From: Haloterrigena gelatinilytica
GTDB taxonomy: Archaea > Halobacteriota > Halobacteria > Halobacteriales > Natrialbaceae
DNA: 64,000 nucleotides
NCBI RefSeq assembly: GCF_013342145.1
Contig: NZ_JABUQZ010000001.1
Location: 4,216,001-4,280,000 of the forward strand
Direction: 5' to 3'
Each line of letters begins with the position of its first letter. Positions within the stretch are counted from its first letter, which is position 1. The translations under genes were made by a program, and so were the position numbers. Under the pieces are notes generated by a model that was given only the letters and a program-made list of their open reading frames with translations, had not been told where the DNA came from and did no database searches. Of this stretch, positions 44,906 through 63,256 are shown piece by piece.

Positions 44906-45487
44906 TCAGTCCAATGGTTCTTGAGAGGGATCCGTCGAACGGCCGACGATCGCTTCACGCATTTCCGGCGTTGTAGAGATCTGTTCTTGCAGCTTTTCCT
45001 CGCCGCGGACGTATTTGATCCAGTAGTACCAGAGACTGCTCGCATCCGGACACTCCAGGTTCAGCTCTTTCCGCCGCTCAGACAGCTCCTCGGACGTCTC
45101 CTCGATCTCCGCGTCAGTTACCCTGTTGGACGGTAACGTGACCATCAAGAAATCACGGTAGTCATCAAACAATGCATGGTGCTGTTTCGCCGATTTCCGG
45201 AACCGTTCCGCACGGTTATCCGGCTTTGCGGCTCGCCGGTAGCCGGTGATCACTGCCATCCCCAGCGGCAGCACGATTGTCGTCCACCGAGGCCACGCCG
45301 TCCATACCGCTTGAGAGACGAGCAACAGGCTTGCAGTGAACAGCACCGTGTCAAGAAACCGGTTCAGCCACCGGTAGAAGTTCGCCGCCAAGAAATGCTG
45401 ATTATACGTGTTGCACGCGGAATCGGCTTTAATCACCGCGTTCTTCCGGATCCGGTCTCGGAACGCAGGGTCCTGGTCACCGGTCAT
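44906..45487 (-). CDS. SLATT-domain two-TM effector of the CBASS-like operon
   Basis: A 193-residue protein with the SLATT layout: an N-terminal helix with NQHFLAANFYRWLNRFLDTVLFTASLLLVSQAVWTAW, two TM segments at about 42-63 and 67-84, and a C-terminal helical region (RFRKSAKQHHALFDDYRDFLM ... ELSERRKELNLECPDASSLWYYWIKYVRG). SLATT proteins are predicted pore-forming effectors switched on by nucleotide second messengers. It overlaps the CD-NTase gene by four bases as the last gene of the operon, the usual effector arrangement. Confidence 0.8.
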   Translation of the reverse strand: MTGDQDPAFRDRIRKNAVIKADSACNTYNQHFLAANFYRWLNRFLDTVLFTASLLLVSQAVWTAWPRWTTIVLPLGMAVITGYRRAAKPDNRAERFRKSAKQHHALFDDYRDFLMVTLPSNRVTDAEIEETSEELSERRKELNLECPDASSLWYYWIKYVRGEEKLQEQISTTPEMREAIVGRSTDPSQEPLD

Positions 45488-46440
45488 CGGTTCACCTCGT
45501 CACCGATCGCGTCACCGTACGCTTCGTCCGCTGCCGCAGTGTTCCCTTGTCGTCGAAGCCGGTTTGCTCGGCGTACATGCTCACGCGCCTCTCGTGCCGT
45601 TTGAATAGCTTCGCGGCGGTCCGCCGGATCCATCTCTCCATCAATCCGCTGGCCGTACACGGGTTCTCGCGTGCCGTTCGAGATCCGCTGCGGTAACTGC
45701 TCGAAGAAGCCCTCCACCAGCTCTTCTGTCGACGCGTTCTTATCCGGGTGCGTGCGGACGTAGTGGTACGCCATGACCTCCATGTGATAGGACGAGACCG
45801 GGGACCCGGTGTTGTCGTTGAACTTCTTAGCGATCCGGGCCACTCGCTGCAGCTGTCCACCGCGCGCCCGGTCAACGGCGTCGAACTGGTTTTTGTACTG
45901 CCGAGGGTTCGTCTGCACCCACGACCGGCCCCCGCTGTACGTGTCCGGTATCACGTATCCGTCACCACTGCGGAACGCCGGCGCGACTTCGACCGTGAAA
46001 TCGTGGAACTGGACGGCAACCACATTCCGATCGATACTGACCTTGGAGTTCGGATACCGTCGTTCCAACGCTCGTTTCACGGCCTGCAAGCAGTTCTTCG
46101 ACCCGTTCTCACCTTGGAGCCATTGCCCATGTTGCGCCTCGTCAAGCACGACCATCACGTCCGAATCGGACTCTTCGTCCAGTGGCCCGACCATGGTTCC
46201 CCGTGTATGAGAGCCGATCTGGTGGCTGTCTTCCACGTCCAGCTCCTCGTCCATGATGTCGACGAGACGTTGCCGGCGTTCGTCGATCGTCTCTCCCTGG
46301 TGGTCCGTGATCGCGGCCTCGTCCGCGTACTCGTCGATGGAAGTCTGCTCATCGTCTGAGTCCGCAGCAGACGGTTCGGCACTGCCGCCACCTGGACCAG
46401 TACCACCGGATCGACTCCGGGGTGAAATACCGCTACCCAT
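45484..46440 (-). CDS. CD-NTase (cGAS/DncV-like nucleotidyltransferase)
   Basis: A 318-residue nucleotidyltransferase. The GS motif (QIGSHTRGTMVGPLDEES) is at residues 75-77, and the metal-binding pair D92 and D94 lies in SDSDVMVVLD. The third acidic position is E151 in FTVEVAPAF, an allowed variant. A C-terminal helical domain follows (YHMEVMAYHYVRTHPDKNASTEELVEGFFEQLP). Enzymes of this superfamily make cyclic di- or trinucleotides on phage sensing. The ATG at 46440 follows the upstream stop by one base; an ATG at 46476 is a longer option. The N-terminal 50 residues are Ser/Gly-rich. Confidence 0.85.
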   Translation of the reverse strand: MGSGISPRSRSGGTGPGGGSAEPSAADSDDEQTSIDEYADEAAITDHQGETIDERRQRLVDIMDEELDVEDSHQIGSHTRGTMVGPLDEESDSDVMVVLDEAQHGQWLQGENGSKNCLQAVKRALERRYPNSKVSIDRNVVAVQFHDFTVEVAPAFRSGDGYVIPDTYSGGRSWVQTNPRQYKNQFDAVDRARGGQLQRVARIAKKFNDNTGSPVSSYHMEVMAYHYVRTHPDKNASTEELVEGFFEQLPQRISNGTREPVYGQRIDGEMDPADRREAIQTAREAREHVRRANRLRRQGNTAAADEAYGDAIGDEVNR

Positions 46441-46441
46441 G

Positions 46442-47215
46442 CTACGACCACCCCCGAACCGGGAAGTACGCGTCAAGCGGTGCCTGTCCGATCTGGAGCG
46501 CGGAGTGGATCGAGGCGGCCCACTGTTCGTACTGGCGGACGGCTACCGCGGCTGGTTCCGATCCGACGTCCGTGACGCGGAGCCAGCGCTGACCTGCAGC
46601 GCCCGACACAGCGGGTGGAAGCTGTGGTAACAAGTTCTCGGACTGCAGGCCGATCGCGAGGATATCGTCCGGTTCGTATTCGATCGCGATTTCCTGCAGC
46701 CGCCGCAGCAGGTCGGGGAACCGGTTTCCATATGAGAAGTATTGGGCGCAGTAGTAGGCGACGCGGTCGATCCCGTAGTGATCGAACACCTCGTAACAGA
46801 TATCGCGCTCGTACGGGGTCTCGCCTTTCACCAGGGGAATCGGCTCGATCCCGTGGTCACGGAACTGTGGGATGACGTCCGCCAAGGTCTCTGCGTACGT
46901 GCGTATCGTCTCCACCCGGAACGATTGCGGGTCATCACGGTACACCGGCGTATCACATGGGACGATGCCGCTCGCGCCGTATTCGGTGGCGACCGCGAGC
47001 TCCCGGTCCGGGAACCAGAGTTCGAGTTCCTCGTCGTCGAAGGTCGAGGAGAGCACGACGTCGGCGTCAAGGTCGGCAGGTGTCCAGCCCTTCTGCTGGA
47101 AGCGGTGAACGTACCGCTCGTCAATCATGACAGTCGGGATGGCATCGGTTTGCTGCGCTACAGCGACCTGTGCAGCCTTTGGTTCGAGCCGGGGGATTGG
47201 ACCAGTAAGTTCCAT
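46442..47215 (-). CDS. Protein of unknown function opening the CBASS-like operon, possible TIM barrel
   Basis: A 257-residue soluble protein. It has the strand-helix alternation of a TIM barrel: ADVVLSSTFDDEELELWFPDRELAVATEYGASGIVPCDTPVY, then IEPIPLVKGETPYERDICYEVFDHYGIDRVAYYCAQYFSYGNRFPDLLRRLQEIA and DDILAIGLQS. The order (PLVKG strand, helix, YYCAQYF strand) is reminiscent of the tRNA-guanine transglycosylase superfamily, but no catalytic Asp or zinc site can be placed. It is translated immediately before the CD-NTase, so it belongs to that operon, though it is not a usual CBASS component that I know. Confidence 0.5.
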   Translation of the reverse strand: MELTGPIPRLEPKAAQVAVAQQTDAIPTVMIDERYVHRFQQKGWTPADLDADVVLSSTFDDEELELWFPDRELAVATEYGASGIVPCDTPVYRDDPQSFRVETIRTYAETLADVIPQFRDHGIEPIPLVKGETPYERDICYEVFDHYGIDRVAYYCAQYFSYGNRFPDLLRRLQEIAIEYEPDDILAIGLQSENLLPQLPPAVSGAAGQRWLRVTDVGSEPAAVAVRQYEQWAASIHSALQIGQAPLDAYFPVRGWS

Positions 47216-49154: not shown

Positions 49155-49718
49155 ATGATTTCTGACAACCTCAAGTCAGTTCCAACCGGGACTCCCGGCG
49201 TTTACTGCATGTTTGATCTCGACGGCAAGGCCGCCTACGCAGGGCAGACCAGTAAACTCCGGAGCCGCCTCAGGCAACACTTTATCCGACAGGACTCCAG
49301 CGTGGTCAGCTATGGCCGACTGGATATCTGGGATATCGCCTACGTGGACTGGTGGGAAACGCCTGAGACGGACCGGGCTGAACAGAAACTACTCTCCGCG
49401 TACCAACCGTATCTCAACTTTGATGCCGAAATCACGCCACCAAGCGGTTCCGTCGACCTTGAGATAGAGCAGCCAGACGGAACGGTCGAGCTGGTGTCCG
49501 AGGAAGAGCGAGCGTTTCGGTCGGAACCATACAACCGGTCAAAGCAGAAACTTGAGCATCTGCTGCGCATGGTCGATACGATCAAACTGGCTGGCCACAG
49601 CGATGCGACCAAGAAAACGCTCTATGCTCATCAGCGCATTTTCCACGAGAACGTCTCCGAGTTCCTCGGCGTCGAACCTGAGGAAGCTCACACCGATCTT
49701 TCCGACTGGGTCGAATAG
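49155..49718 (+). CDS. GIY-YIG nuclease
   Basis: A 187-residue protein. The N-terminal 90 residues are a GIY-YIG domain: GTPGVYCMFDLDGKAAYAGQTSKLRSRLRQHF supplies the GVY...YAG core and the catalytic Arg in LRSRLRQH, and ETDRAEQKLLSAYQPYLNF supplies the metal-binding Glu and the Asn. The C-terminal half is helical (SKQKLEHLLRMVDTIKLAGHSDATKKTLYAHQRIFHENV). Such enzymes nick or cut DNA in restriction, homing or repair. It lies 101 bases from the convergent GmrSD-type gene. Confidence 0.85.
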   Translation: MISDNLKSVPTGTPGVYCMFDLDGKAAYAGQTSKLRSRLRQHFIRQDSSVVSYGRLDIWDIAYVDWWETPETDRAEQKLLSAYQPYLNFDAEITPPSGSVDLEIEQPDGTVELVSEEERAFRSEPYNRSKQKLEHLLRMVDTIKLAGHSDATKKTLYAHQRIFHENVSEFLGVEPEEAHTDLSDWVE

Positions 49719-49820: not shown

Positions 49821-52310
49821 TTACGCGGTCAGCACTGCCAGCCGTTTTTCGATGTCTTCCTTGACGTAGTCTTCGATATCGTCCATATACGGTTCAAACT
49901 CGTCAGGTTCCGTTCTGAACTTCAGCGATTCCAGTATGGCCGTGATGAGCTGCGCTTTCCGGTCGACCAGCTGTTCGTAGGTCCACCACTCGTTGAAGTA
50001 CTGGACTGTGGGGTGGACCTCCGAGAACTGGGTTTCATCCTCTGGCAGATCCTGGGCGACCAGTTCCTCGAGTTTATCGTTCGAGATATTATCTGTGGTC
50101 GAGAAGTACTGGTTAACGAGATTGTCCATGTCCTTGCTGTGTCGGAGGTGGTACTCGCGGAGTTTCACCGAGAACAATCGGTTCTTGATCGGCGTGTTCA
50201 CCTCCTCGTCCAGAAGCATCATGTTCCCGAGGTCGCGGACAAACCGTTCCTCGATCCCGTCGATGATCTGCTCGATCTCGTCGTACCCGGGATCGTCCGC
50301 GGAGAGGAGGTGGGCGTCCCGGTTCCGCAGATAGTCGATCTGCGTTTCGATCATGTTGCGGTCGCCATTATCGAAGAAGCATTCCAGCCAGGCGTACGGG
50401 TTCTCCTTGCCGGGGAGGAAGTAGGATAGGGGGAGAATGTGCTCGATGTGGACCTCGCTCGGATCCTCGCTCAGTTCGGATTTCGTGATCCCGGTCTGGT
50501 TCCGTCGCCGGAAGTCTTCGTCTGCCAGTTTCAGGAACAGCTGCTTCGTCTGGTTGTTCCGCCAGTTTTCGCTGGTGATGAGGACGTCGATGAACGACTC
50601 GTCGAAGAGCTGGCGCGCTGAGCTATCGATGTTCTCGATCAGCGTTTCACTGATCGTATCGACGTCGAACTGGTTCCCTGACTGTTCGAGTTCGCGGAAC
50701 GCTTGACAGGTTTTCGGGTACGTGTCGTCCACGACGGTCGCCACGAGATCGGAAATCGCGACCCGGAACGTGATATTCTCCACCGTTTTCAGGATGTCGC
50801 GGAGAAACGCGTCCTTCCCGGGGGCTTCCGTCACGGCCTGGTAGACGTACATGACGAATGGCCGCCACTGCTTGGTCCCGAGTTTGTTGAGACGCTGGAG
50901 GATGGCTTCGCACTCTTCCCGGTACTCCTTTTTCAGCTCGGTGTCGTCGTCGGTCAGGTCGGCGGTCACGATCTCCCGGTACCTGCCCGCATAGTTTTCC
51001 AGTTCCTCGAGGAAGTCGCGGGCCTGTCCGGGGCTGGCCAGCCGGGATTTGATATCGCGGCGGCCGATCTGTTTCAGCCGGAACGCTTCCAGCATGTTGC
51101 TGCGGGCATCGGTCACAGTCTCGAACGACTTCTCGGTTGCCGCCAGGTAGTGGGCGAGGAAGTCCTCGACCGCGTCCGCGTCACCGCCGAACATCTGTAC
51201 CACGTTCTCCCAGCGGGCGATCTGTTTGTCGCTGTCGGACTCGCCCTGGAACCGGCCGACGATACGAGCCCGGACCTTGTCCATATTGGAGAGTTCGACC
51301 CCACGGTCGTTCAGCGACTGGAAGACTTCGATGCGGAGCTCCTGGTTGTCGGTCTGGAAGATGCACTCGGAGACGCGGAGTGACCGGAGGGTGAAATGTG
51401 CAAGGTTGAGCAGGGCCTTGACCTCTTTTTCGGGCGTGTCGAACTCTTCCCGGTCGGCGAATGCGGCGACCTTTGCATCGTAGTATTCGTCGGTCTGCAC
51501 CAATCGGCGGTGGGAGTCGCCGAAATACCGGAACGACTCCAGCAGGTCGGTATCGGCCAGTTCCTCGTCGTCTTCGTAGACTTCTTCGGGGATCCCGATC
51601 TCATCGAAGAGGTCTCGGAGGCGGATGGCGTTCTGTTTGCGGCCGTCGTACTGGTCCATCGCCTTGAGCGTCTGAACCTTCTTCTCGGGGTCCTGGAACA
51701 GCAGCTCGTAGATCTTGTCGTCGTGGTCGTTGAGTTCCAGGAATGGGGTTTCGGTTGGGCCTTTCCGCCGGTACAGCAGCTCGTCGAGATATTCCTCACA
51801 GATGTGTTCGGCGTACTCTTGGAGCTGGCCGTCGACCTGGTCCCGCTTCTCCTCGAGATGGTCTTTGATGTTCTTCAGGAGGATGGAGACCGTGGAGAGG
51901 CGTTGCTGGCCGTCGATGATCTCATAGACTTCACCCTGCGAGGACCGGGCAATATACACGGTGCCGAAGTAGGTGTCCACCGGGAGTTCGCCGGATTTTG
52001 GTTTCAGTGTGAGAATAGACAGGAGCGTGTCCCACAGTTCCTCATGTTGTTCCTCCTCCCACGAGAAGTTCCGCTGGTATTCCGGAACCTCGAACCGTTC
52101 TCCATCTGTCACGCGGAGGAGCGACCGGTTTTTCAGCTCGATATCCTGCTCGAGCGAGCGGATGAACTGGGTGCTATCCACGAAATCCAGGTCCTGATAG
52201 ATCTCCCGATAATCAGTGGGATCATAGTCGATGATCCCTGTCCCGTCTGGATCGCCGGGATACAAGAAGACCCGGGTCCCACAAAGTGGTGTTTCGTCCG
52301 AACTTTCCAT
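49821..52310 (-). CDS. GmrSD-type protein (DUF262 plus DUF1524)
   Basis: An 829-residue protein of the type IV restriction family. The DUF262 (GmrS, ParB-like NTPase) part has VPEYQRNFSWEEE at about residues 75-87, YFGTVYI near 114 and DGQQRLST at 133-140. A long helical middle follows. The DUF1524 (GmrD, His-Me nuclease) part has VHIEHILPLSYFL near 615, a downstream Asn-rich segment and LGNMMLLDEEVNTPIKNRLFSVKL. GmrSD enzymes cut glucosylated or otherwise modified DNA. As the last gene of the dpd-like cluster it could be the restricting arm or a separate defence against modified phage DNA. The 79-base gap to the GHKL gene allows cotranscription. Confidence 0.88.
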   Translation of the reverse strand: MESSDETPLCGTRVFLYPGDPDGTGIIDYDPTDYREIYQDLDFVDSTQFIRSLEQDIELKNRSLLRVTDGERFEVPEYQRNFSWEEEQHEELWDTLLSILTLKPKSGELPVDTYFGTVYIARSSQGEVYEIIDGQQRLSTVSILLKNIKDHLEEKRDQVDGQLQEYAEHICEEYLDELLYRRKGPTETPFLELNDHDDKIYELLFQDPEKKVQTLKAMDQYDGRKQNAIRLRDLFDEIGIPEEVYEDDEELADTDLLESFRYFGDSHRRLVQTDEYYDAKVAAFADREEFDTPEKEVKALLNLAHFTLRSLRVSECIFQTDNQELRIEVFQSLNDRGVELSNMDKVRARIVGRFQGESDSDKQIARWENVVQMFGGDADAVEDFLAHYLAATEKSFETVTDARSNMLEAFRLKQIGRRDIKSRLASPGQARDFLEELENYAGRYREIVTADLTDDDTELKKEYREECEAILQRLNKLGTKQWRPFVMYVYQAVTEAPGKDAFLRDILKTVENITFRVAISDLVATVVDDTYPKTCQAFRELEQSGNQFDVDTISETLIENIDSSARQLFDESFIDVLITSENWRNNQTKQLFLKLADEDFRRRNQTGITKSELSEDPSEVHIEHILPLSYFLPGKENPYAWLECFFDNGDRNMIETQIDYLRNRDAHLLSADDPGYDEIEQIIDGIEERFVRDLGNMMLLDEEVNTPIKNRLFSVKLREYHLRHSKDMDNLVNQYFSTTDNISNDKLEELVAQDLPEDETQFSEVHPTVQYFNEWWTYEQLVDRKAQLITAILESLKFRTEPDEFEPYMDDIEDYVKEDIEKRLAVLTA

Positions 52311-52389
52311 ACCCTTACACCGGTATCAGTTATACGTTAATATTGTGGTAGCAGACAGCTTCCGCTTCCTTGATACACCGGGTGCCGAG

Positions 52390-53955
52390 CTAATCCAGTG
52401 AGGTGAGCGGCTGATGTTCTTGCGCTGCAATCCGATCACAGACCGTGATGATATCCACGGTATGTCGATCCTTATGGTGGTAGACGATCCGGTCATCCTG
52501 GAGATCTATCTCCACATCACCGCCGTGGTAGCCGTGCCGTTCGTACTCCCGCAGGACATCAATATCACCGTAGTCCCAGCAGAGTATTGTATCAGCCGAC
52601 CCGAGCGGATAGTCGTTTTCGAAGTGAGTCGTGAGTTCGACGTACACGTGGCTGGTCCGGGGGTCTCCATCCTCCAGCAGGATAGCGGGTACTTCGTGGT
52701 CTGCTTTGTACTCCTCTACGGTAATCTCTGTGTCTGCATGGGTATTGGAGCGTTCGAGGGCTAACAGGACCTCGGTGCGGTTGGTCGGCGTGAACGGTTC
52801 AGCAGGGTTGATTGCATCGAGCCGGTCCTCGAGTGATGTTGTCTGCGACTGTGCGCGTCGCCGCAGCTGTGCCCGCTTCCGTGTCTCCAAGTAGTCCTCC
52901 TTGAACCACGGATCTTCGGCAATCTTCGTCATGTAGTGTTTGAGCTCCCGTTTCAGTTCCTTGTACAGTGAACTGGCCTTGTTCCGGACCTTGCCCCGGT
53001 TCGCCGAGAGTTCCAGGTCCTGGCAGTTGGCGATGAAGAAGAAGTGAATGAACTCGTTGTCGTGGGTGAGAACCTCGTTGACCTGCTCGACCTTGATGTG
53101 GTCTTTCGCGAGCCAGACACCGAACTGAACGGAGTGCCGACCGTAGGTGGGGAGTTCGTTCCGCGCTTCTTTGCCTCCGATCATGCCGACGATTTCCACG
53201 GTTGACGTTCCACTATCGTGCTCGAATTCAATTTCCCGCGGCGGATAGTGCTTGCACATCCGGGTGGCGGGGAATTCACCGGTATCCGGTTCGAGCTGTT
53301 CGCTGGGGAACGTGAGCTGGTTGGTCGTGGCAAGTTCGTCCCGGGAGTCATCGATCTCTTGGTCGAGGTCGACCACCACGTCCATCTCGCGCTGGTCGCT
53401 ATCGAAATAGTGGGCGGTTGAGCCGGCGATGGTTTTCCACTTCAGGTAGTGGTGGACTTTGTCGTATGTCAGTGAGGCCGGGTCGAACCCTTCGCCGGAT
53501 CGGAAGCCACTGATCTGGATCCGGGTCCCGGTGTTGTCTGGCCGGGTTTCCATTTCGGTCACTTCGTACTCCGGCAGCGTCTTGTTGTTCAGCTTTTCCC
53601 ACGGCCGGTCCATGACGGCGTGGTAGTTCGTACCATCATGGGCGGTGTCAACGACGATCCGGTCGCTCTTGTAGAATATTTTGGTGCCATGGCCTTTGTG
53701 ACCGATCGAGTCCGTTTTCCGGGAGTTCCCGAGGTCAAAGAAGGATTTGAGGTCGTCGCGGGACATCCCGTGGCCGTCGTCTTCGATAATGATATCGGAC
53801 CCTGATGCGGTGTTACGGATGGTTATCAAGACCTCCGTGGCACCGGCGTCGTAGGCGTTCGACAGCGATTCACGGATGATCTCAAGTGGATCCTCAAAGT
53901 CGCTGGCAATTTCAAGAAACTCCTGTACTTCGTTTACTTCCGGGTGCTGTTTCAT
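52390..53955 (-). CDS. GHKL (Hsp90/MutL/MORC-type) ATPase
   Basis: A 521-residue protein with a complete Bergerat ATP-binding fold: the N box ESLSNAYDAGATEV (E29, N33, D37), DDGHGMS at 59-65 and the lid GHKGHGTKIF at 85-94. A transducer-like domain then runs to about residue 330 (ELSANRGKVRNKASSLYKELKRELKHYM). The C-terminus is mixed alpha/beta (ILLEDGDPRTSHVYVELTTHFENDYPLGS). Its arrangement resembles MORC-like or Hsp90-like stand-alone proteins of defence loci. It starts two bases after the DpdA stop, so it is translated with it; GHKL proteins are not part of the described bacterial dpd set as I know it. Confidence 0.85.
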   Translation of the reverse strand: MKQHPEVNEVQEFLEIASDFEDPLEIIRESLSNAYDAGATEVLITIRNTASGSDIIIEDDGHGMSRDDLKSFFDLGNSRKTDSIGHKGHGTKIFYKSDRIVVDTAHDGTNYHAVMDRPWEKLNNKTLPEYEVTEMETRPDNTGTRIQISGFRSGEGFDPASLTYDKVHHYLKWKTIAGSTAHYFDSDQREMDVVVDLDQEIDDSRDELATTNQLTFPSEQLEPDTGEFPATRMCKHYPPREIEFEHDSGTSTVEIVGMIGGKEARNELPTYGRHSVQFGVWLAKDHIKVEQVNEVLTHDNEFIHFFFIANCQDLELSANRGKVRNKASSLYKELKRELKHYMTKIAEDPWFKEDYLETRKRAQLRRRAQSQTTSLEDRLDAINPAEPFTPTNRTEVLLALERSNTHADTEITVEEYKADHEVPAILLEDGDPRTSHVYVELTTHFENDYPLGSADTILCWDYGDIDVLREYERHGYHGGDVEIDLQDDRIVYHHKDRHTVDIITVCDRIAAQEHQPLTSLD

Positions 53956-53957
53956 TG

Positions 53958-55199
53958 TTAGAAATATCCTCCGAGTGATTGGTTGACGACGCGGTGCGTC
54001 TGTTTGCGGATCGGGTCACGGCGACCCACGGTCTCGTCGAGGTAGTTGATCAATGGGTCTGTTCCGTGCTGTTTGATCCGCTGCCGTAGCTCCTGTACTT
54101 CCTGTTTGTGGATGATGAGGTTGTGCATGGCGACCGGGCCGAGGATATCCTTCTGGTATTCGGCATTCCCCTGCATCCGGTCCACCAGCATCGGTGTCGA
54201 GCAGACCGGGCAGTCACATTGGGAGAAGTCCACCTCGTCCAAGGGGATGTGGTCGGTCAGGCTCACCGAGTACTTTTCGTTGATCGCGTTCAGGATGTAG
54301 GTTGTTGCGTCGAACGTGTCGGCACCGGCGGCGACGAGCAGGGGTATTGAGCTACTGCCGATCCCGAGGATGTGGAGCGGAAGGTCCTCTAACCCGCGTT
54401 CCTCCATGATTTCGACACAGTCCATGACTGCGGTGATCAGTGCCTCCTTGTTGTCCTTCTTCGGGACCAAGCTACCGAGCGCGATCCCGTCGAACAGGGT
54501 GGAGATATCGATATTCCCGAACTGGGACTGGACGGTATCGAAAAACCGGTTGAGCATCGAGTAATTGTAGCCGTGGACGGTCAGGTACCGGGCACCGGGA
54601 TAGTCCTGGGTGAGGCGGGCGAACTCCACCGCGTTTTCGGCGGTACGTTCCGCTTTTGTCTGCCGCTCCTCGAAGGTGTCGTTGGGCGTGATCGGGCGGT
54701 CGAGGTTGACCACAATATCGCCGCCGAGCTGGTTCTGGATCCGGAACGCTTCCCGTTGATCGATCTCGATCTCGAAATCGCTGCCGTCGAGGCCATCGCT
54801 GTGTAAGAACTTGTACCCGCCGGAGTCGACGAATATGAGACCGCTATACTCTGAAAACGGTTCCCGGTCCTTGATCCGTTCCGCGGTGTAGTCATCAAAC
54901 CGTTCACGGTTGATTCCGTAATCGGTGAGAGCTGCGACGGAGGTCATCGTTCCGCGGAAATATTCCTCGTACGTGCCGCCGCCGATCGCGTCATCACCGA
55001 TCATGAACTCCTTGATTGTCCGGTGGACACCACCACCGAAGACGCTGGATTTCGTACCGCCGCCGTAGAAACTCAGGACAGGGAAGAACGTTGGTGTCTC
55101 GAGGGTCTGGCCGTTGATCGTGAGCGTACCAGCCCGGGCATCACCGGCCGTCGCCGCGACTTGGAACGTGGTCTGATCAGTCTGCCTGAACTGTGGCAT
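53958..55199 (-). CDS. dpdA: DpdA: DNA 7-deazaguanine transglycosylase (TGT fold)
   Basis: A 413-residue TGT-superfamily protein with no PUA domain. It starts like the family (GDARAGTLTINGQTLETPTFFPV). D125 in FVDSGGYKF matches the base-binding Asp, LTVHGYNY and FDGIALGSLVP match the GxxxG specificity loops, and D297 in DTFDATTYILNA matches the nucleophile. The zinc site C-x-C-x2-C-x25-H is exact: C328, C330, C333, H359 (HNLIIHKQ). tRNA-acting archaeal TGT carries C-terminal PUA domains and lies elsewhere, so this copy should exchange guanine in DNA for preQ0. It overlaps the upstream gene by 23 bases. Confidence 0.85.
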   Translation of the reverse strand: MPQFRQTDQTTFQVAATAGDARAGTLTINGQTLETPTFFPVLSFYGGGTKSSVFGGGVHRTIKEFMIGDDAIGGGTYEEYFRGTMTSVAALTDYGINRERFDDYTAERIKDREPFSEYSGLIFVDSGGYKFLHSDGLDGSDFEIEIDQREAFRIQNQLGGDIVVNLDRPITPNDTFEERQTKAERTAENAVEFARLTQDYPGARYLTVHGYNYSMLNRFFDTVQSQFGNIDISTLFDGIALGSLVPKKDNKEALITAVMDCVEIMEERGLEDLPLHILGIGSSSIPLLVAAGADTFDATTYILNAINEKYSVSLTDHIPLDEVDFSQCDCPVCSTPMLVDRMQGNAEYQKDILGPVAMHNLIIHKQEVQELRQRIKQHGTDPLINYLDETVGRRDPIRKQTHRVVNQSLGGYF

Positions 55200-55659
55200 T
55201 CTTCACCTCCGTTTCAAGTGCGGACTCGCCATCCCGGACGACGCGCTTGAGCGCGTGGCCTTTCTGGCCGATGCCCTCGCCGTCGATATATCGGACCGAT
55301 GCCCGGAGGTCAGACAGGTCACCGACTGCGTGCCGGTACTCCGCCCCGAGATTGAAAATGACGTGGTCGTACTCGTGTGCCGTAACCCGTGACCGCAGCT
55401 CCGCCGTAACATCAGGACGGAGATCAGTAGCCCGCTCCACGGTCATCCGGCGATCGTAATACGCAATCTTGTCGGTTGCATCCACGAGACCGTGTTCGGC
55501 CGAGAGCACACAGATATCGATGGTGTCCTGAAATTCTCCCTCACGTATCGCTTTTTTGATGATTTTGAAGAAGTACCCGGAGTATAATTCCAAGGGCTTG
55601 ACCGGTTTTCCGGGGCGATTTTTGGACTTTGAGCAGGACTGTACCAGCAGTATCGACAT
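55177..55659 (-). CDS. DUF6884-type protein, first copy
   Basis: A 160-residue protein: MSILLVQSCSKSKNRPGKPVKPLELYSGYFFKIIKKAIREGEFQDTIDICVLSAEHGLVDATDKIAYYDRRM, then HVIFNLGAEYRHAVGDL. The SCSKSK start, LYSGYFF, LSAEHGLV and YD.RM match the DUF6884 pattern. The alpha/beta fold with a conserved Cys suggests an enzyme, but no activity can be assigned. It heads the dpdA operon behind its own TATA element, and its stop overlaps the dpdA start. A paralogue lies at 55862-56311. Confidence 0.7.
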   Translation of the reverse strand: MSILLVQSCSKSKNRPGKPVKPLELYSGYFFKIIKKAIREGEFQDTIDICVLSAEHGLVDATDKIAYYDRRMTVERATDLRPDVTAELRSRVTAHEYDHVIFNLGAEYRHAVGDLSDLRASVRYIDGEGIGQKGHALKRVVRDGESALETEVKNATVQAD

Positions 55660-55683
55660 GGCTGCTTCTTTCGACCCCTGGAC

Positions 55684-55691
55684 CTTATAGT
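55684..55691 (-). promoter_or_regulatory. TATA element of the DUF6884-dpdA operon
   Basis: On the minus strand the run actataag lies 25-32 bases before the ATG at 55659, fitting a leaderless transcript. It implies that the modification half (DUF6884, DpdA, GHKL, GmrSD) can be expressed separately from the upstream genes, from which it is parted by 202 gene-free bases. Confidence 0.5.
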
Positions 55692-55861
55692 TTCCCCCAT
55701 CCTAACCTAGACACGTTATCTACAGAAAACAGGCAATACAAGCGTTTTCAAGCTGGTTTGGGAAAACACCTGTGAGGCAAACTGCAGAGTCATAGCCAGT
55801 CCTTTTAAGTCAGGTATATATTCGTTCTGAGTGTTTTCTGAGGATATCTAAGCGGCGGGGG

Positions 55862-56311
55862 TTATTCGAAGGAGCCAATTGTTGACTGGTCGGGCGGGGA
55901 ATTATGTTTGAGCCATTCCACCTGTTCAAACAGGCGTTTGCCTTGGAACGGCCACCGGACGGTGGAGACTAGCTCGTGGAGGTCATCGTGGATTGGGGTA
56001 ACGTAGTCATGGCCCGCAAGAATGACGACCTCATCGAAGCCGGTGATCTGTGGTCGCAAGTCGTCGATGACCTCTGTCCCCCAATCGGCGGCTTCGGTAT
56101 CGCTCAGATCGGTCATCGCGGTATCGTACGGTTCGAGGACAGTGGTGGGATGGACGACACCGTGTTCAGCGGAGAGGATCCGCCAGGCGTGGCATCCCTC
56201 TGCCCACTGGCGTTTCTTCGCGAAGTAAGTGGAGGTGTAGAGGGATTTTGCTTCCGTTGGCTCGTCGCGTTTTTCGCTGCCACAGCCGACGAGTGCCAAG
56301 GTTTTCGTCAT
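55862..56311 (-). CDS. DUF6884-type protein, second copy
   Basis: A 149-residue protein: MTKTLALVGCGSEKRDEPTEAKSLYTSTYFAKKRQWAEGCHAWRILSAEHGVVHPTTVLEPYDTAM, then VVILAGHDYVTPIHDDLHEL. It shares with the copy at 55177-55659 the CGSEK/CSKSK start, LYTSTYF, ILSAEHG and YD.A/RM elements, but only distantly. It starts 9 bases after the stop of the second TGT-fold gene. A pair of this family flanking two TGT-fold genes suggests they act on the same chemistry, for example handling the 7-deazapurine (inference). Confidence 0.7.
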   Translation of the reverse strand: MTKTLALVGCGSEKRDEPTEAKSLYTSTYFAKKRQWAEGCHAWRILSAEHGVVHPTTVLEPYDTAMTDLSDTEAADWGTEVIDDLRPQITGFDEVVILAGHDYVTPIHDDLHELVSTVRWPFQGKRLFEQVEWLKHNSPPDQSTIGSFE

Positions 56312-56320
56312 GGCCGGGGA

Positions 56321-57253
56321 TTACTGGTAGTCGCTGATGCTCTTCTGCTTCGTGGTAAACTCGGTATTGTACTTGGTGAGCCGGTGTGTTGCCTGAAGGA
56401 GGATTCCGAATTCGAATGCTCCCGCGACCGAGTTCCGCATCTGTCCTTCGACCAGTCCAAATGGCTGCTTTTGCCAGTGTTTGTCGAGCAGGCCGCCGTT
56501 GAGGATGGCCTGTGATGGACCGCTGTTATCGACGGACTCGATCAGGTCAGGATTGTGCCGGAGGGATTCAACAAGGGAGTCTGACAGCCCCCAGCCCAGT
56601 CCGTGGAGATCGGGCTCGTCACCAATCTCGTCCCGGAGGGCCTGAGCTTCGCTGATCCGGCGTTTGGGATTCGCATTTTTGAGTCCGCCAAGCATGTACC
56701 GCTCCTCGAGATGACTGTCCACAACGATCTCCCTGATATCCTGTATGTGATCGACATACGGTGGCTGCAGCGGGATATATGCCGGTGGGTGCCGGTCCGG
56801 ATCGTGGAGGTCGATAAATTCCCGGATACTTTGTGTCGTCGCCTCCGTATGGTTTGCTGCCCCTGTCAGCTCCTCCAGGTCAAACTTGCGGTCGTAGAGG
56901 TGAAACGGCAGGTAGTCTTTAGCGACGACGGCCGTCGCGTCTTTCGTCACTGCTTCGGCGAGGATATCCTCGTTAGTTACCGTGGGATCGGTGATGTTCG
57001 AGTCAAGGATACGGTGCTGGCTCCGCCAGAACGATGCCGGCGCACACTCCCCAGCCTTCTGCAGCCGATATGGCCATGGATGTTTGAGAGACGAGGCCGC
57101 ATAGATGTTGACCGGACATTTCTCCAAGATCATCTCTAACCGTTGAAAGTACCCTAAGACCAGATGTGGGTCAAAATAGTCCAGATCATCAGGATTCGCG
57201 TGGAAGTCCTCAACTTCCTCCGCGAACGCGCCAATCTCAGGCCGTTTTCCCAT
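56321..57253 (-). CDS. Second TGT-fold protein (DpdA-like), without zinc site
   Basis: A 310-residue protein that follows the TGT barrel in shortened form: FWRSQHRILDSNITDP (D84, S85, at the place of the DSGG Asp), YIPLQPPYVDHIQDIREIVVDSHLEERYMLGGLKNANPKRRI, DLHGLGWGLSDSLVESL at 215-231, and a Ser-Val-Asp (D242, in ESVDNSGPSQA) at the place of the nucleophile. The C-x-C-x2-C...H zinc motif is missing. Proteins like this are annotated in archaeal viruses and plasmids as queuine tRNA-ribosyltransferase-like. It could be a second DNA-modifying subunit or a base reader. Its own TATA-like region lies near 57280. Confidence 0.7.
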   Translation of the reverse strand: MGKRPEIGAFAEEVEDFHANPDDLDYFDPHLVLGYFQRLEMILEKCPVNIYAASSLKHPWPYRLQKAGECAPASFWRSQHRILDSNITDPTVTNEDILAEAVTKDATAVVAKDYLPFHLYDRKFDLEELTGAANHTEATTQSIREFIDLHDPDRHPPAYIPLQPPYVDHIQDIREIVVDSHLEERYMLGGLKNANPKRRISEAQALRDEIGDEPDLHGLGWGLSDSLVESLRHNPDLIESVDNSGPSQAILNGGLLDKHWQKQPFGLVEGQMRNSVAGAFEFGILLQATHRLTKYNTEFTTKQKSISDYQ

Positions 57254-57413
57254 AGCAGAGAGTATCAGCCAGTTGGTTAAGCCGTTTGGGTTCTCAAACG
57301 AACCACGGTCCTATAAACGTGGATGGGTCCGGGAACGTAGCTGGGTCGCTCCTCGCGGCGAGGTAGACAGCACTGACGCATCCGGCACTAGGTCGTCTCG
57401 TGTAACCGCGTCT

Positions 57414-57869
57414 TTAGAGGTCAATTTGCAGCCGATCCTCGAGAAAGGCGCTGATGCTTCCACATTCGTTTTCACGGATATCACAGAGTTCGACATTGAT
57501 GTTTAAGCCGCGGTATGTGATGTTTGCAGATCCCTGGTACAGGACCTGATCTGTCACGATCGCTTTCGCATGGAGGTTCTCGACCTCCTTGATACGGGCC
57601 ACGTCCGAGACACGAGGGAGTAATGCAGCGGGACGGAGCTGGTTGTGATCGGCTTGTGCGGGGTCGACGATGAACCAGACATCGGTATCGAAGAACCGGA
57701 CCGCTTCAGACAGCTGTAACTGCCGTGCAGAGAGTTGGTCAGTTTCCGGGAACCGCACAGTGATGTCACTTACCCAGGGAGAGACGATCGCGATCCGCTC
57801 TGCGTTCAGGAACGCCGTCCCGAGAAAGGAGGCGATCAGGTCAGAGTGAATGGAAAATGTTCGTGCCAT
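57414..57869 (-). CDS. PLD-family nuclease-like protein (DpdK/DrmC-like)
   Basis: A 151-residue phospholipase D-fold protein with a single HKD motif: H100-x-K102-x4-D107 in NLHAKAIVTD, followed by GSANITYRG at 113-121. One motif per chain implies a dimer. Stand-alone PLD proteins occur next to the large helicase in both Dpd (DpdK) and DISARM (DrmC) systems. The ATG at 57869 (MARTFSIHSDL) overlaps the helicase by 29 bases, so the two are coupled; an extension to 57923 has no homology signal. Confidence 0.8.
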   Translation of the reverse strand: MARTFSIHSDLIASFLGTAFLNAERIAIVSPWVSDITVRFPETDQLSARQLQLSEAVRFFDTDVWFIVDPAQADHNQLRPAALLPRVSDVARIKEVENLHAKAIVTDQVLYQGSANITYRGLNINVELCDIRENECGSISAFLEDRLQIDL

Positions 57870-60800
57870 CGATTCGAGCACCAGGCATCGCCTCATTGTC
57901 GAGCATTTCGGTACCCCACGCATCGCCGTCCGTCCGGGTAATCAGATGCTCGTACAGCGGTTCCAGCACGGCAAAGCTCAGGATATCACTTTGGTCCCCG
58001 GGGACGATACTGTAGGCCTGGTGAAGGTTTTCGATACACCCGTCGACATCGGGTTCTTCCAGCAGATTCCGTACTTTTTCGACAGTCATATCCAGATCAT
58101 GGTCATCGATGACATCCTCTGCCGGTTCATGATCGCCTGCAACGAACTGCCGTTGGACCACGTCCTGCCGGAGGTCGTATGCATCGGCTGGATCGATACC
58201 GACGTCCCCGGCAAATTCCTCAACGCGGTCAGCCGTATTCCGCACCATCTCCACGACGTCATCGACCACGGTCTCCACGGCGACGGTAACGTGATCCGCG
58301 ATCATACCGCGAACCGCCTCCCAGTCGTCGTTTTGGACGGCAGCAACGAACTCCGGATCGGTCCACAGATAACCGTTGATCAGCTGTGGATTCGATGCGA
58401 CCCGGTTGATCGATCGGAGCAACTTTTCATGTTCCGGCCGGTTCCGGACGTCATCAAAGAGATCGACGATCCCTTGTCCGCCTTCAGCGTACTCGAAGAC
58501 GGCGACCTGCTGAGTCTCCGGGTTGATGCCGTACAGTAACTGGGCCTGATTGACGCCACTCACGTCTGCGATGATCTCTAACAAGAGATGAGCGGCGGTG
58601 TAATGGATCGAATTCTCCAGATCCTCATCCGGGTTGTGGGTGTCAAACCGGTCACGGAACTCGCGGTATTCTTCGTCTTCGAGGAACGCATCGATAAACT
58701 CGCTGAGATCCCAGACCGCTCCGCGCGTTCTGAGAGAGAATCCCAGCGGTTGGTTGAACGCGATCGTGACCTCCTGTTGGTTATTCCGATCCGGATTGAA
58801 CGGGGTACTGTTACCGGTCGTCGGATCACCCATAGGATCTGCGGGTGTAATGGTCAGCTCAACAGCGTCCAGCCGGACATCCGGCGACATATACGTGACA
58901 GTGATCCCATCTGCTGTTGACACGTCTTCGTTGAAGACGGTAGAGATCTGGGGATCCGAATGAAGCTGCCCAAACTCCATGGTGTCACTGCCATGCGGTC
59001 CAGTATCCCAGAAATCACGTCCTATGTAGAGTGACTCGGTACAGTACCGGACAATTGATTGGGCGCGGTTTCCTGAATAATCACGGACGCGCTTTACAGG
59101 CAGCGTGTTTGGCGTGATCACGTTCTGCCCAGGTTCTGTGCTGAGACCAGCAACATCGAAGTAGTAATCCGCCTCGTCTTCCGGAGGAGCGTCCTGGACA
59201 GGAGGATTAAATATCTGCAGGGACTGGTCTGATAGATATTTTGCCATGAACGGGGCATATTCGAAGAAGAGCGTGGTCAGCGGTGCCTCCGTTCGCTGCG
59301 CATCATTCTCGTCCTCATCTTCATCGTTCACAAACCGGCGGTCAGACAAGATGTCAACACGGTCCTCTTCGTCATCTGCATCGTGTTCCTCTTCCGGGAC
59401 GATCGAAAACGTCTCCCCTGCCTCGGCAAAGTATGAGGTAGGGACGTAATGCGGTGGCTGGAGCTGTTCACCGACATCATCCAGCGCCACGGCGCGATCG
59501 AAGAAGTACACCGCCCGGAGCAACGCCTTAAAGGCACGTACCATCAAATGGCCATAGATCGTGTTTTCGCCCTCCTCTCGCTCGTATTCCTGACCGATAA
59601 AGCAGTACAGCTCCTGGAGCGACTTCTTGAGGTAGTAGGCTTGCCGCCATCGTTGTCCCCGCTGCCGCAATTCCTCGTCTCTACGGATTCCACGGGCTGT
59701 CTGCAATGCCTCCATGGCCTCCCCATATCCCAGATTATAGGGGAAGGCCTCCGGAACCCCGTCCAACGACGGCGCGAGGGACGCCAGGTCATCCTGGATA
59801 TCGTATAGCTGCCGGTCGAGGCGGTCATACCAGTCCCGGCGATCCAGATCATCGTCGGTGAGCAGATCAGTGAGTTGCGCAAGGTCATCGAGGAGATCAT
59901 CGACTGCCTGCTCGACAGCAGTAGTCTCCGGCTCTGCACTGTCCAGCAGTTCCTCGGTTTCCTCGCGCAGAGTACGCAGTCCCTGTTCCATCCACTCATC
60001 GAGGTCATCCCGTTCGTCCAGCTGGAGGGTGAACCGCGTTGCTGGCTCACCGACGAAACCAGCGATCTCTGTGAAGACGGCACGGTCTTGGATGTCCTGC
60101 AGCTCCCGATACGCTCGTCGCAGACCATCCTTGCTCTCCAGTCCGTCGAGCTCCCGGACCTGCTGTTCAAGCGTATTTTGCAGGATGGTACTGGGATTCT
60201 GGATCAGATGCAGGAATGCCTGGAACGAGGCCTCATCCGACTCGTTGAGGAACGATTCAAGGAAGCGTTCCCGTTGTTCGTCGTTGGATAATCCCGGCTG
60301 GCGTCGGAGTTCGTAGACAATCTCGAAAGCGCGGTAGAGCTGGTCATGAATCCAGATCAGGATTTCGTTCTCGACGTTAAGGGGCGTGGTGATTTCTGGC
60401 TCGAGGAACCGATCAGCCCGGTGGAACAGTGTCCTGTCACCCCCTTCGTTATCCAACGTGACAAGGAAATGAGCGTCATTACCCCCTTGACGCGACGCAC
60501 GGCCGATCCGTTGAACGAACTGGGACATCTCCCACGGAGCTCGGTACTGGCTGATCACCTTGATCGCCGGGATATCGATCCCTACTTCGAGTAGAGAGGT
60601 ACTCAGTATAAGATCCGTGTTCCCGAACTCGTCTGCCCCAAGCCGGAGATCAGATGTGGTCCGCTCTATGTTGAGATCGCCTTGGATGAGCTGATGCCCA
60701 AGACGTGTCTCAGCCGGTCTGGCGGTTCTGTACGGGGTATTGTTGGCGACCGTATCCCAATCGTCTTCTCCGGTGTTATGGTGGCGCCACCGCCCTTCAT

Positions 60801-62073
60801 TTTCGAAATCCTGGATCTGAAAATACCGTTGATTAACCTGGCTCACACTGTCAATAAAGGCAAGCGCCTTCTTTCGGTCACGGTCACCGTGCTCGTCCAG
60901 AAGCGCATGCGCAAACAGCAGGATTTGCTGGATGAACGTGGAACTCGTCCCGACATCCTCTGCCGAGGTTACAAAGTGGAAGTGCTCCGTGTCTTCCGTT
61001 TCCCGTTTATCTTCGGGACCGGTCTGGATAACGGAGATATTGCCTGAATCCACCCCGAACAGATCACTCCCGAACTGCTCTGGCTGATCGATCGTTGCAC
61101 TGGAGCCGATGAACAGCATCCCAACATCGTCATCCATCCGTCGTGCAATCGACTCCCGCGTATTCTTGATGATACGAGAGGCATGCGACCCATAGATCCC
61201 ATTATAGAGGTGCACTTCATCAAACACGACCGTCCGGAACTCATCGATGATATGGTAATTTGGCTTGAGCGCAAAGTTTTCTAATGAGTTAATAGTCGTG
61301 AGTAAAATATCGGGAACCTCCCCACCATTATCCGGCTGCATAGCTGCACGCGATAGTTTCAACGTGTCTTCACCAAACGTTGGACCTCCCGGCACTGTAA
61401 GCTCATACGCGTCATCGTCCCATTCCAGCGCAACAGGGTCATTCTCGTGCTCTCCACCTGTCCACTGAGCAACCGTGAATTCACCATCGTCAACGAGCGC
61501 ACTCTCTGCGACCTCACTGTTATCCCGCCGAACATTCCCGTTATAGATTCCGATCGAAATACCGGCGTCGTACTCCTCGTTCATTTCGTGCAGTGTAACG
61601 AGGAACCGCTCGAGCTGGTCTTCGAGCAGCGCGTTCCGCGGGTAGACGATCGCGATTTTCCCGAACCCATCACCGTTGTTAAACGCGAGATCGTGGAACA
61701 AGGGGCCAGAGAATCCTTCCGTCTTCCCAAACCCGGTTGGCGCGGTTAACATCGCAGCCTGGGTTTCACCCTCATCAGTCCGGGCCTGCCGCATCTCATT
61801 CAGCCGGGTCCAACACTGTTCCTGAAAGTAGGTCAACCCGTCAAATCCAAGCACATCATGCAGAACCTCCTCGATATACTCATCGTCTCCATCGTAGGAA
61901 TGCCGATCAGGCCGTTGAACCGGTCGAGAATGGTACTTAAGAGCTTCCGTTACCCGGGTCGGATCCGGATCGTTGGCATCCCAGCGCTGCCGGTTGGCTA
62001 CGATCGCCTCCAGAAGCGTTTGTACTTGCGCGTCAAACCGGTCGAAATCGGAGTGCCGGTCCGCATAGTCCAT
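57841..62073 (-). CDS. Large DEAD-like helicase with DUF1998-like C-terminus (DpdJ/DrmA-like)
   Basis: A 1410-residue protein. Helicase motifs: Walker A MLTAPTGFGKTEGF near 108, motif II VVFDEVHLYNG near 284, motif III IGSSATI, motif V STSLLEVGIDIPAIKVIS, and motif VI QRIGRASRQG near 521. A long helical middle (550-900) follows. Around 1140-1240 is a segment AAHLLLEIIADVSGV ... QVAVFEYAEGGQGIVDLFDDV, which matches the DUF1998/MZB pattern with its EGGxG turn. Such proteins pair with a PLD protein in DISARM and Dpd restriction. First gene of the cluster, with a TATA run at 62094-62106 about 25 bases upstream of its ATG. Confidence 0.85.
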   Translation of the reverse strand: MDYADRHSDFDRFDAQVQTLLEAIVANRQRWDANDPDPTRVTEALKYHSRPVQRPDRHSYDGDDEYIEEVLHDVLGFDGLTYFQEQCWTRLNEMRQARTDEGETQAAMLTAPTGFGKTEGFSGPLFHDLAFNNGDGFGKIAIVYPRNALLEDQLERFLVTLHEMNEEYDAGISIGIYNGNVRRDNSEVAESALVDDGEFTVAQWTGGEHENDPVALEWDDDAYELTVPGGPTFGEDTLKLSRAAMQPDNGGEVPDILLTTINSLENFALKPNYHIIDEFRTVVFDEVHLYNGIYGSHASRIIKNTRESIARRMDDDVGMLFIGSSATIDQPEQFGSDLFGVDSGNISVIQTGPEDKRETEDTEHFHFVTSAEDVGTSSTFIQQILLFAHALLDEHGDRDRKKALAFIDSVSQVNQRYFQIQDFENEGRWRHHNTGEDDWDTVANNTPYRTARPAETRLGHQLIQGDLNIERTTSDLRLGADEFGNTDLILSTSLLEVGIDIPAIKVISQYRAPWEMSQFVQRIGRASRQGGNDAHFLVTLDNEGGDRTLFHRADRFLEPEITTPLNVENEILIWIHDQLYRAFEIVYELRRQPGLSNDEQRERFLESFLNESDEASFQAFLHLIQNPSTILQNTLEQQVRELDGLESKDGLRRAYRELQDIQDRAVFTEIAGFVGEPATRFTLQLDERDDLDEWMEQGLRTLREETEELLDSAEPETTAVEQAVDDLLDDLAQLTDLLTDDDLDRRDWYDRLDRQLYDIQDDLASLAPSLDGVPEAFPYNLGYGEAMEALQTARGIRRDEELRQRGQRWRQAYYLKKSLQELYCFIGQEYEREEGENTIYGHLMVRAFKALLRAVYFFDRAVALDDVGEQLQPPHYVPTSYFAEAGETFSIVPEEEHDADDEEDRVDILSDRRFVNDEDEDENDAQRTEAPLTTLFFEYAPFMAKYLSDQSLQIFNPPVQDAPPEDEADYYFDVAGLSTEPGQNVITPNTLPVKRVRDYSGNRAQSIVRYCTESLYIGRDFWDTGPHGSDTMEFGQLHSDPQISTVFNEDVSTADGITVTYMSPDVRLDAVELTITPADPMGDPTTGNSTPFNPDRNNQQEVTIAFNQPLGFSLRTRGAVWDLSEFIDAFLEDEEYREFRDRFDTHNPDEDLENSIHYTAAHLLLEIIADVSGVNQAQLLYGINPETQQVAVFEYAEGGQGIVDLFDDVRNRPEHEKLLRSINRVASNPQLINGYLWTDPEFVAAVQNDDWEAVRGMIADHVTVAVETVVDDVVEMVRNTADRVEEFAGDVGIDPADAYDLRQDVVQRQFVAGDHEPAEDVIDDHDLDMTVEKVRNLLEEPDVDGCIENLHQAYSIVPGDQSDILSFAVLEPLYEHLITRTDGDAWGTEMLDNEAMPGARIDGTNIFHSL

Positions 62074-62467: not shown

Positions 62468-63256
62468 ATGGGCCACACCGCGATCTATGCCCGAGTTTCA
62501 ACCGACAGCCAAGACAGTACCCGGCAACTTGAGGAGTGTCGCGCAGAAATCAACGACGACGAGCCGTTCGAGGTCTATGCCGAAACTGGGAGCGGTGCCG
62601 ACCCCGACCGACCAGAGATCAACCGGCTCATAGATGACATCAAGTCCGGAGACGTAGACTGCGTTGTCGTCTGGGAGATTTCCCGGATCAGCCGAAACCT
62701 CGCATTCACCGCCCAGTTTATCGAGCTCTGCGTCGAGAACGAAGTCGAACTCCACTCTCTCAACGACATCTTCCCCCGAATCCGCGCGGACAGCGACATC
62801 ATGCAAGAAATGGTTGGCAAGATCGCCGCATGGATGATGGAATTCGAACGCGAGATGATCCGCGAACGCATCAAATCCGGGATCCGTAACGCCCGATCAC
62901 AAGGCAAATGGCTCGGACGTCCACCCTACGGATTCACCACGGACGACGACGGCTATCTCATCGTTGAATCTGAAGAATACCTGAATATGCAGACCGCGCT
63001 GGAAATACTGGAGACGGACGACGATATGTCCATCAGTGCGGCAGCACGACACACTGGCGTTCCCAAATCCAGCTTGTCCCGCATCTACAAGGACGAGGAA
63101 CGGCGGAAGCTGTACCTGTTCGGTGAAGTGGACGACAGTCGTATAGTGGATGCTGTCGAAAACGATGATGACGTCACTCACGACAGCGAACTTGTCGAAC
63201 TCCGCAAACGCATCGAGAATCTTGAGGAAACGGTGGAACGCGCTGTCGGAGAATAA
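62468..63256 (+). CDS. Serine recombinase (resolvase/invertase family)
   Basis: A 262-residue serine recombinase. The catalytic domain starts MGHTAIYARVSTDSQDSTRQLEEC with nucleophile S11 and the R9 pocket, then DCVVVWEISRISRN with the family Arg residues, and the long E helix KIAAWMMEFEREMIRERIKSGIRNARSQGKWLGRPPYGF. The C-terminal part has an HTH (ISAAARHTGVPKSSLSRIYKDEE) and an acidic tail. It may resolve multimers or invert or excise a segment. An AT-rich TATA element lies about 28 bases before the ATG. The second recombinase of the element, beside the tyrosine integrase at 19893. Confidence 0.9.
   Translation: MGHTAIYARVSTDSQDSTRQLEECRAEINDDEPFEVYAETGSGADPDRPEINRLIDDIKSGDVDCVVVWEISRISRNLAFTAQFIELCVENEVELHSLNDIFPRIRADSDIMQEMVGKIAAWMMEFEREMIRERIKSGIRNARSQGKWLGRPPYGFTTDDDGYLIVESEEYLNMQTALEILETDDDMSISAAARHTGVPKSSLSRIYKDEERRKLYLFGEVDDSRIVDAVENDDDVTHDSELVELRKRIENLEETVERAVGE

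Follow-up and report, generated by a model that had tools for sequence, protein, structure and literature searches.

The window, the whole 64,000-nucleotide stretch of DNA analysed here (C1:4216001-4280000 of a 4.55-Mb genome), contains eight intact open reading frames on the minus strand between positions 49821 and 62073, arranged in a single block as the initial annotation had described. In the order of transcription, they encode a YprA/DpdJ-like superfamily 2 helicase of 1410 aa (57841-62073), a single-HKD, DpdK-like PLD nuclease of 151 aa (57414-57869), a 310-aa protein referred to here as orfX (56321-57253), two DUF6884 proteins (DUF6884a, 55862-56311; DUF6884b, 55177-55659), a DpdA-like guanine transglycosylase (TGT) of 413 aa (53958-55199), a 521-aa GHKL ATPase (52390-53955) and an 829-aa GmrSD nuclease with DUF262 and DUF1524 domains (49821-52310). 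Profile searches confirmed the families previously assigned to the PLD, DUF6884, TGT, GHKL and GmrSD proteins. A convergent neighbour on the plus strand (49155-49718) encodes a GIY-YIG nuclease-domain protein (Pfam, 6.6e-7), possibly an accessory of the block, homologues of which occur in 11 of the 36 TGT-GHKL loci described below.

The helicase and PLD genes overlap, as had been noticed before, by 29 nt when the PLD start conserved in the related haloarchaeal genome G143 is used (the gene may also begin further upstream, at 57923). A gap of 160 bp separates PLD from orfX, which lies 9 bp from DUF6884a; downstream of these, the DUF6884b and TGT genes overlap by 23 nt, and the TGT-GHKL and GHKL-GmrSD distances are 2 bp and 79 bp, respectively. 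This spacing suggests three transcription units, comprising helicase-PLD, orfX-DUF6884a and DUF6884b-TGT-GHKL-GmrSD. Searching other haloarchaea for the same gene order recovered all eight genes, identically arranged, in G143, and six of the eight with their order kept in three more genomes (G028, G370 and G291). All eight genes showed dN/dS values of 0.04-0.15 between the window and G143, and are therefore real, maintained genes under strong purifying selection. The recurrence of the gene order and the low dN/dS together argue that the block did not arise by chance.

In the surrounding DNA, a SMODS nucleotidyltransferase gene (Pfam, 4e-23) overlaps a gene for a SLATT_4-like membrane protein (0.003, below the cutoff) at 44906-46476 on the minus strand, and the proximity of this CBASS-like pair to the island points to a wider defence region. 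A serine recombinase is encoded just upstream of the helicase gene (62468-63256, plus strand). The GC content falls from about 0.62-0.70 to about 0.53-0.62 over positions 19000-64000, a drop suggesting that this part of the window is a large acquired region.

The transglycosylase and its conserved neighbours

Alignment of the 413-aa TGT (Pfam TGT, 4.6e-28) to the archaeal TGT 1iq8 showed that it keeps both catalytic aspartates, D125 (in DSGG) and D297 (in DTFD), as well as the zinc ligands C328, C330, C333 and H359, bearing out the complete active-site and zinc residues read at 53958-55199 in the initial annotation. A Pfam search detected the TGT domain alone, with no PUA domain match. In a 46-protein maximum-likelihood tree the TGTs of this system formed a clade of their own (support 100/100) outside the TgtA clade (99/99), and thus apart from the tRNA-acting enzymes among which it had earlier been considered that the protein might fall. 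Judged by its sequence, the 413-aa TGT is not the housekeeping TgtA, and membership of that family was rejected on both the tree and the missing PUA match. The DpdA equivalog model NF041059 gave 22.1 bits against a cutoff of 200, the protein being nearer to the archaeal type, and its closest sequences in PDB and NCBIfam searches were archaeosine TGTs.

In most organisms the substrate of TGT enzymes is tRNA, and this, together with the archaeosine TGT matches, would fit an enzyme that modifies tRNA or another RNA, making the locus an RNA-modification or translational-stress system. We consider such a function extremely improbable in view of the separate clade and the missing PUA match, of the restriction genes that frequently accompany the TGT core, and of a canonical TgtA (2.6e-84) and an ArcS that are encoded near each other at another place in the host genome. 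QueC (1e-74) and QueD/PTPS (1.3e-19) are likewise encoded outside the block, and with these four genes in the host preQ0 should therefore be available.

The system TGT gene was found in 42 of 391 haloarchaeal genomes, always followed by a GHKL ATPase gene; the GHKL gene was found in 43, the extra one being a fragment. In the 36 loci that we read in detail, DUF6884b, TGT and GHKL were all present in every case (36/36), and the TGT-GHKL distance was always 1-34 bp. This invariable association makes the GHKL ATPase (Pfam HATPase_c_3, 4.4e-14) the protein with which the transglycosylase is always paired, a position occupied in bacteria by DpdB. In Foldseek it came closest to the folds of MutL, Hsp90, GyrB and MORC, and as confidence in the model was low (pLDDT 65.8) the GHKL fold class was all that we took from it. 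On the basis of linkage, the ATPase may use ATP to clamp DNA for the TGT or to load that enzyme. In-frame stops in some GHKL matches came from alignments running beyond the natural gene end, and were given no meaning.

Both DUF6884 proteins scored above the Pfam cutoff (DUF6884a, 4.8e-36; DUF6884b, 1.9e-12) and gave weak PADLOC matches to DpdC (1.7e-4 and 4.4e-4, respectively); dpdC has been reported to belong to this Pfam family (PMC11888242). Pfam, PADLOC and NCBIfam searches with the eight proteins returned zero matches to the ParB/DndB-like DpdB. Thus, the earlier view that the island lacks DpdB and DpdC holds for DpdB; the two DUF6884 proteins may stand for DpdC.

A second transglycosylase-fold protein and its viral relatives

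The orfX product was recognised by neither Pfam nor PHROGs, so that fold and profile methods were needed. Its AlphaFold model (pLDDT 86.6, pTM 0.83) had tRNA-guanine transglycosylases as all of its 50 best Foldseek matches in the PDB (best E, 6e-8), residues D84, S85, G189, H217, S240 and D242 were invariant in 19 homologues, and in a profile comparison with the TGT family D84 and D242 aligned with both catalytic Asp positions. According to this model, orfX is a TGT-fold protein without a zinc site, as the initial annotation had recognised.

That annotation had missed the viral connection of the gene. The orfX protein matches the annotated DpdA of halovirus HRTV-29 (1e-12; Dpdavirus, NC_062762; PMC8651126), in which the DpdA gene is overlapped by a 'YaaA' gene (gp32) whose product scores higher against DUF6884a (54 bits) than against DUF6884b (17 bits). 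As in the window, the virus thus carries adjacent YaaA/DUF6884 and TGT-fold DpdA genes, without preQ0 genes; it differs in its reversed gene order, in sequence (27% identity) and in being a virus genome rather than a host island. The CxxxK and LSAxxG motifs of DUF6884a are intact. The nearest orfX relatives outside the island, in G361 and G346, each adjoin a DUF6884 gene, and the region around the one in G346 is provirus-like and includes a match to a packaging ATPase. Given the HRTV-29 match and these relatives, orfX-DUF6884a is, on sequence evidence, a virus-type pair equivalent to the DpdA-YaaA pair of HRTV-29. A scan of viral contigs with orfX returned zero relatives, the close relatives having come from whole genomes. 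In one further locus (L080 4851-7550, in G283), a virus-type orfX relative lies near a gene for a protein with a start, SGGYDS, that on visual inspection resembles QueC, which suggests a viral preQ0 and DpdA set.

Most of the surveyed loci (31/36) carry instead of orfX an ArcS-like TGT-DUF5591 protein, and in the two of these proteins that were aligned the TGT catalytic motifs are intact, in contrast to the canonical ArcS of the host, where they are lost. The loci without it are the four relatives of the window, which like the window have orfX in its place, and G002, which has a second TGT-fold candidate elsewhere in its genome. Therefore, a second TGT-fold protein, either ArcS-like or orfX, occurs near every surveyed locus except that of G002. 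The mutual exclusion of the two was significant when loci were counted singly (Fisher, p = 1.4e-5) and fell to p = 0.06 with the five near relatives taken as one lineage; we therefore rejected it as a repeated pattern, and treat it as one replacement event. Another arrangement with two TGTs was seen on the cyanobacterial plasmid pNOS3756_2 of Nostoc sp. NIES-3756 (L252 2557-11074), where an annotated DpdA of 714 aa is accompanied by a second, 315-aa TGT between two DEAD/DEAH helicases.

Helicase-PLD, GmrSD and other accompanying modules

The helicase has DEAD and Helicase_C domains and retains motifs GKT116, DEVH285, SAT325 and QRxGRA521. Its best named match was DpdJ (PADLOC, 6.2e-52), and that of the PLD protein (PLDc_2) was DpdK (PADLOC, 1.6e-16); with 152 bits against an NCBIfam cutoff of 800 and 55.8 bits against a cutoff of 100, respectively, they are homologues and not equivalogs. 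The DUF1998-like end previously proposed for the helicase was not borne out, because no DUF1998/MZB match was detected and the whole protein has four scattered cysteines, which form no zinc cluster. Canonical Dpd helicases are likewise reported to be without a zinc cluster in the main text of the BRIGADE preprint (PMC12458937).

Among the five genomes of the window's variant, helicase-PLD is present in two, the window's own and G143, where the helicase is intact (88%), and absent from the loci of G028, G370 and G291. In G028 and G370, C-terminal PLD stubs of 40 aa remain directly upstream of orfX, indicating that helicase-PLD was lost there and the remainder retained. Helicase-PLD thus appears from these comparisons to be an optional restriction module of the variant, so that its earlier inclusion in the island stands for its DpdJ/DpdK-like nature and needs this qualification. 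Its absence from three loci that keep the other genes, as well as the 160-bp gap that suggests separate transcription, could also mean that TGT, GHKL, DUF6884, orfX and GmrSD make up a complete modification/restriction system by themselves, and that helicase-PLD is a separate, independent defence that happens to adjoin it. This is unlikely, since relatives of helicase-PLD adjoin the TGT core in about half of the 36 loci, the PLD stubs place the pair formerly at the same position, and the best matches of its two proteins are DpdJ and DpdK.

GmrSD, the predicted restriction effector, was assigned by both of its domains (GmrSD_N, 3.5e-27, 96.3 bits against a cutoff of 33.2; GmrSD_C, 1e-8, 35.6 against 23), is kept in all five variant genomes, and gave a weak match to PADLOC SspE models (3.6e-13). 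Eight of the nine genomes with a full-length GmrSD homologue of at least 53% identity also had the TGT core (p about 1e-7, with genomes counted as independent). A fragment 96% identical to the window GmrSD lies in a genome without the system TGT (G302:C3:471310-472359), and is either a remnant or a recent transfer.

GmrSD enzymes, classically modification-dependent, are known chiefly for cleaving DNA that carries modifications. GmrSD and helicase-PLD might thus act in a type IV-like manner, destroying viral DNA that carries 7-deazaguanine, with TGT, orfX and the DUF6884 proteins removing or remodelling the mark or guarding host DNA. Bacterial Dpd systems, the source of the best-matching DpdJ and DpdK, restrict unmodified DNA, and the writing of a mark is favoured by the intact motifs of the TGT and by the supply of preQ0 in the host; TGT-GHKL is moreover also found in loci without GmrSD. 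For these reasons we regard a type IV-like function as quite improbable, even though the orfX pair is of virus type, haloviruses carry such bases or DpdA (PMC6884629, PMC8651126) and DUF6884 shares its fold with the DNA-binding YaaA (PMC11701544).

An ARMADA-like five-gene block lies near the core in 19 of the 36 loci (e.g., L071 1647-11809). It consists of a YprA helicase of 1550-1600 aa and four companions of 293, 282, 961 and 229 aa, which occur together in all 19 cases; the 961-aa companion gave STAND/AAA-like matches and matched DpdH weakly. Judging by gene content, effector modules are interchangeable among TGT-GHKL loci.

Relation to known systems and proposed function

BRIGADE (Bell et al., bioRxiv 2025) is a haloarchaeal class defined by ARMADA-like YprA helicases. 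The preprint's main text describes BRIGADE as exclusive to halophilic archaea, and attributes to it PLD nucleases, a predicted cluster of 7-deazaguanine genes and, as a rule, two helicases of the YprA kind (PMC12458937). By comparison with that text, about half of the TGT-GHKL loci, namely the 19 of 36 with the ARMADA-like cassette, look like BRIGADE systems. The window and its variant relatives, all in haloarchaea, resemble them in the predicted 7-deazaguanine cluster (here TGT, two DUF6884 proteins and orfX), in a PLD nuclease (the BRIGADE feature being PLD or PD-(D/E)xK), in a helicase of the Dpd-like YprA kind, and in the DUF6884b-TGT-GHKL core, which also occurs beside ARMADA-like helicase loci. 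They differ in that the ARMADA-like helicase and its four companions are absent beside all five variant loci; a search of the window's own genome for such a helicase gave only the window helicase and weak generic helicases. Instead of the usual two YprA-like helicases there is one in the window, and none beside the core in three relatives, and the ArcS-like TGT-DUF5591 is missing too; in place of these genes the window has orfX-DUF6884 and GmrSD. The shared core and DpdJ-like helicase with PLD could be what is left of a BRIGADE type I locus that has lost its ARMADA-like cassette and ArcS-like gene. Such decay is very improbable, as all eight genes are intact and under the selection described above, and the orfX and GmrSD additions common to five genomes look like a stable variant.

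The block likewise resembles bacterial Dpd (dpdA-K) in combining a TGT, DUF6884 proteins, a DpdJ-like helicase and a DpdK-like PLD, and differs in its GHKL and GmrSD genes and in being archaeal. None of the eight proteins had DpdD, E, F, G, H or I as a best match, and canonical Dpd membership was rejected because the DpdA, DpdJ and DpdK model scores were all below NCBIfam cutoffs. DISARM was rejected as well, the eight proteins including no methyltransferase and giving weak DrmA/DrmC cross-matches only. HerA/FtsK-centred BRC systems have a TGT without DpdB or DpdC, with an NTPase proposed as the DpdB stand-in (NAR 2026, PMC12839542), and differ in their PglZ, DUF6079, HerA, STAND NTPase and GNAT genes, none of which are in the window block. 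In Haloarcula and Halobaculum plasmids (L251 6338-14830 and L253 7992-11076) we observed a triplet of TGT, hypothetical protein and BREX-type ATPase genes, accompanied in Haloarcula by QueE, PTPS and an EVE-domain gene. Ssp systems (SspABCD-SspE, PMC9646914) similarly link a DUF262-type effector to a DNA-modifying module, with other modification chemistry and writer proteins.

The locus probably functions in the manner of Dpd and has its core in common with BRIGADE-type loci, but by defining features it is a member of neither. On sequence comparison, the five-genome subclade of the window is a distinct variant, so that of the new gene set and haloarchaeal Dpd counterpart first proposed, the variant, the extra TGT outside TgtA and the DpdJ/DpdK-like genes stand, whereas the gene set is not isolated (42/391 genomes; 19/36 loci BRIGADE-like) and canonical Dpd models stay below cutoff. 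The main text of the BRIGADE preprint does not mention GHKL, transglycosylase or DUF262 (PMC12458937), and as far as the papers show, with BRIGADE represented by that text, neither the pairing with GHKL nor the pattern of two transglycosylases nor the virus-type pair has been described.

We propose, with a probability of roughly two in three, that the island is a haloarchaeal 7-deazaguanine DNA modification-restriction system and represents a variant within the BRIGADE/Dpd group. Our observations comprise its gene content and folds, the intactness of its catalytic motifs, and its phylogeny, linkage and selection. This reading is supported by the full active site of a TGT outside TgtA with the canonical pathway genes elsewhere, by the invariant core with a second TGT-fold protein near all loci but one, and by the DpdJ/DpdK best matches, the viral pair, the GmrSD linkage and the low dN/dS. 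Counted against it are the missed NCBIfam cutoffs, the weak DpdC matches, the lack of a ParB/DndB-like DpdB among the eight proteins, a GHKL role drawn from linkage, the usual preference of GmrSD for modified DNA, the missing helicase-PLD in three of five genomes, and the discussion of DUF6884 in Pfam as possibly related to DNA repair (PMC11701544).

In the mechanism that we infer, the 413-aa TGT would replace guanine in host DNA with preQ0 supplied by the archaeosine pathway, the GHKL ATPase assisting it in place of DpdB, and orfX, as a second, virus-type DpdA, would also insert a preQ0-type base in DNA. The DUF6884 proteins would act like DpdC and convert the nitrile group that the inserted base carries, the amide (ADG) being the probable product. 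Self DNA would be recognised by this mark, and GmrSD, plus helicase-PLD where present, would attack unmarked incoming DNA. Measurements of 7-deazaguanine in DNA exist for some bacteria, for phages and for a halovirus; in the literature, we found none for archaeal chromosomes. There is precedent for DpdA putting deazaguanine in viral DNA (PMC6884629), and GmrSD may read the mark, as SspE, a modification-dependent effector, is tied to phosphorothioate (PMC9646914).

A bolder version, which is possible and against which we would still lay odds, is that a GHKL protein of MutL/MORC type, rather than a ParB/DndB protein, drives DNA guanine transglycosylation in haloarchaea, and that the system needs two different transglycosylases. 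One of them would be constant; the second would be an ArcS-like enzyme, or else a virus-type DpdA that was acquired along with its DUF6884 partner as a replacement. GmrSD would read the mark, which might be identical to that of the virus, and a viral anti-restriction module would have been turned into a host self-mark.

The window locus and its approximately 40 relatives provide a defined three-gene core, DUF6884-TGT-GHKL, that is directly testable, and the assembly of such systems is illustrated by their second transglycosylases and effector modules, which are interchangeable. A putative DpdA pair of viral type within a defence island of the host connects the viral and host sides of one chemistry.
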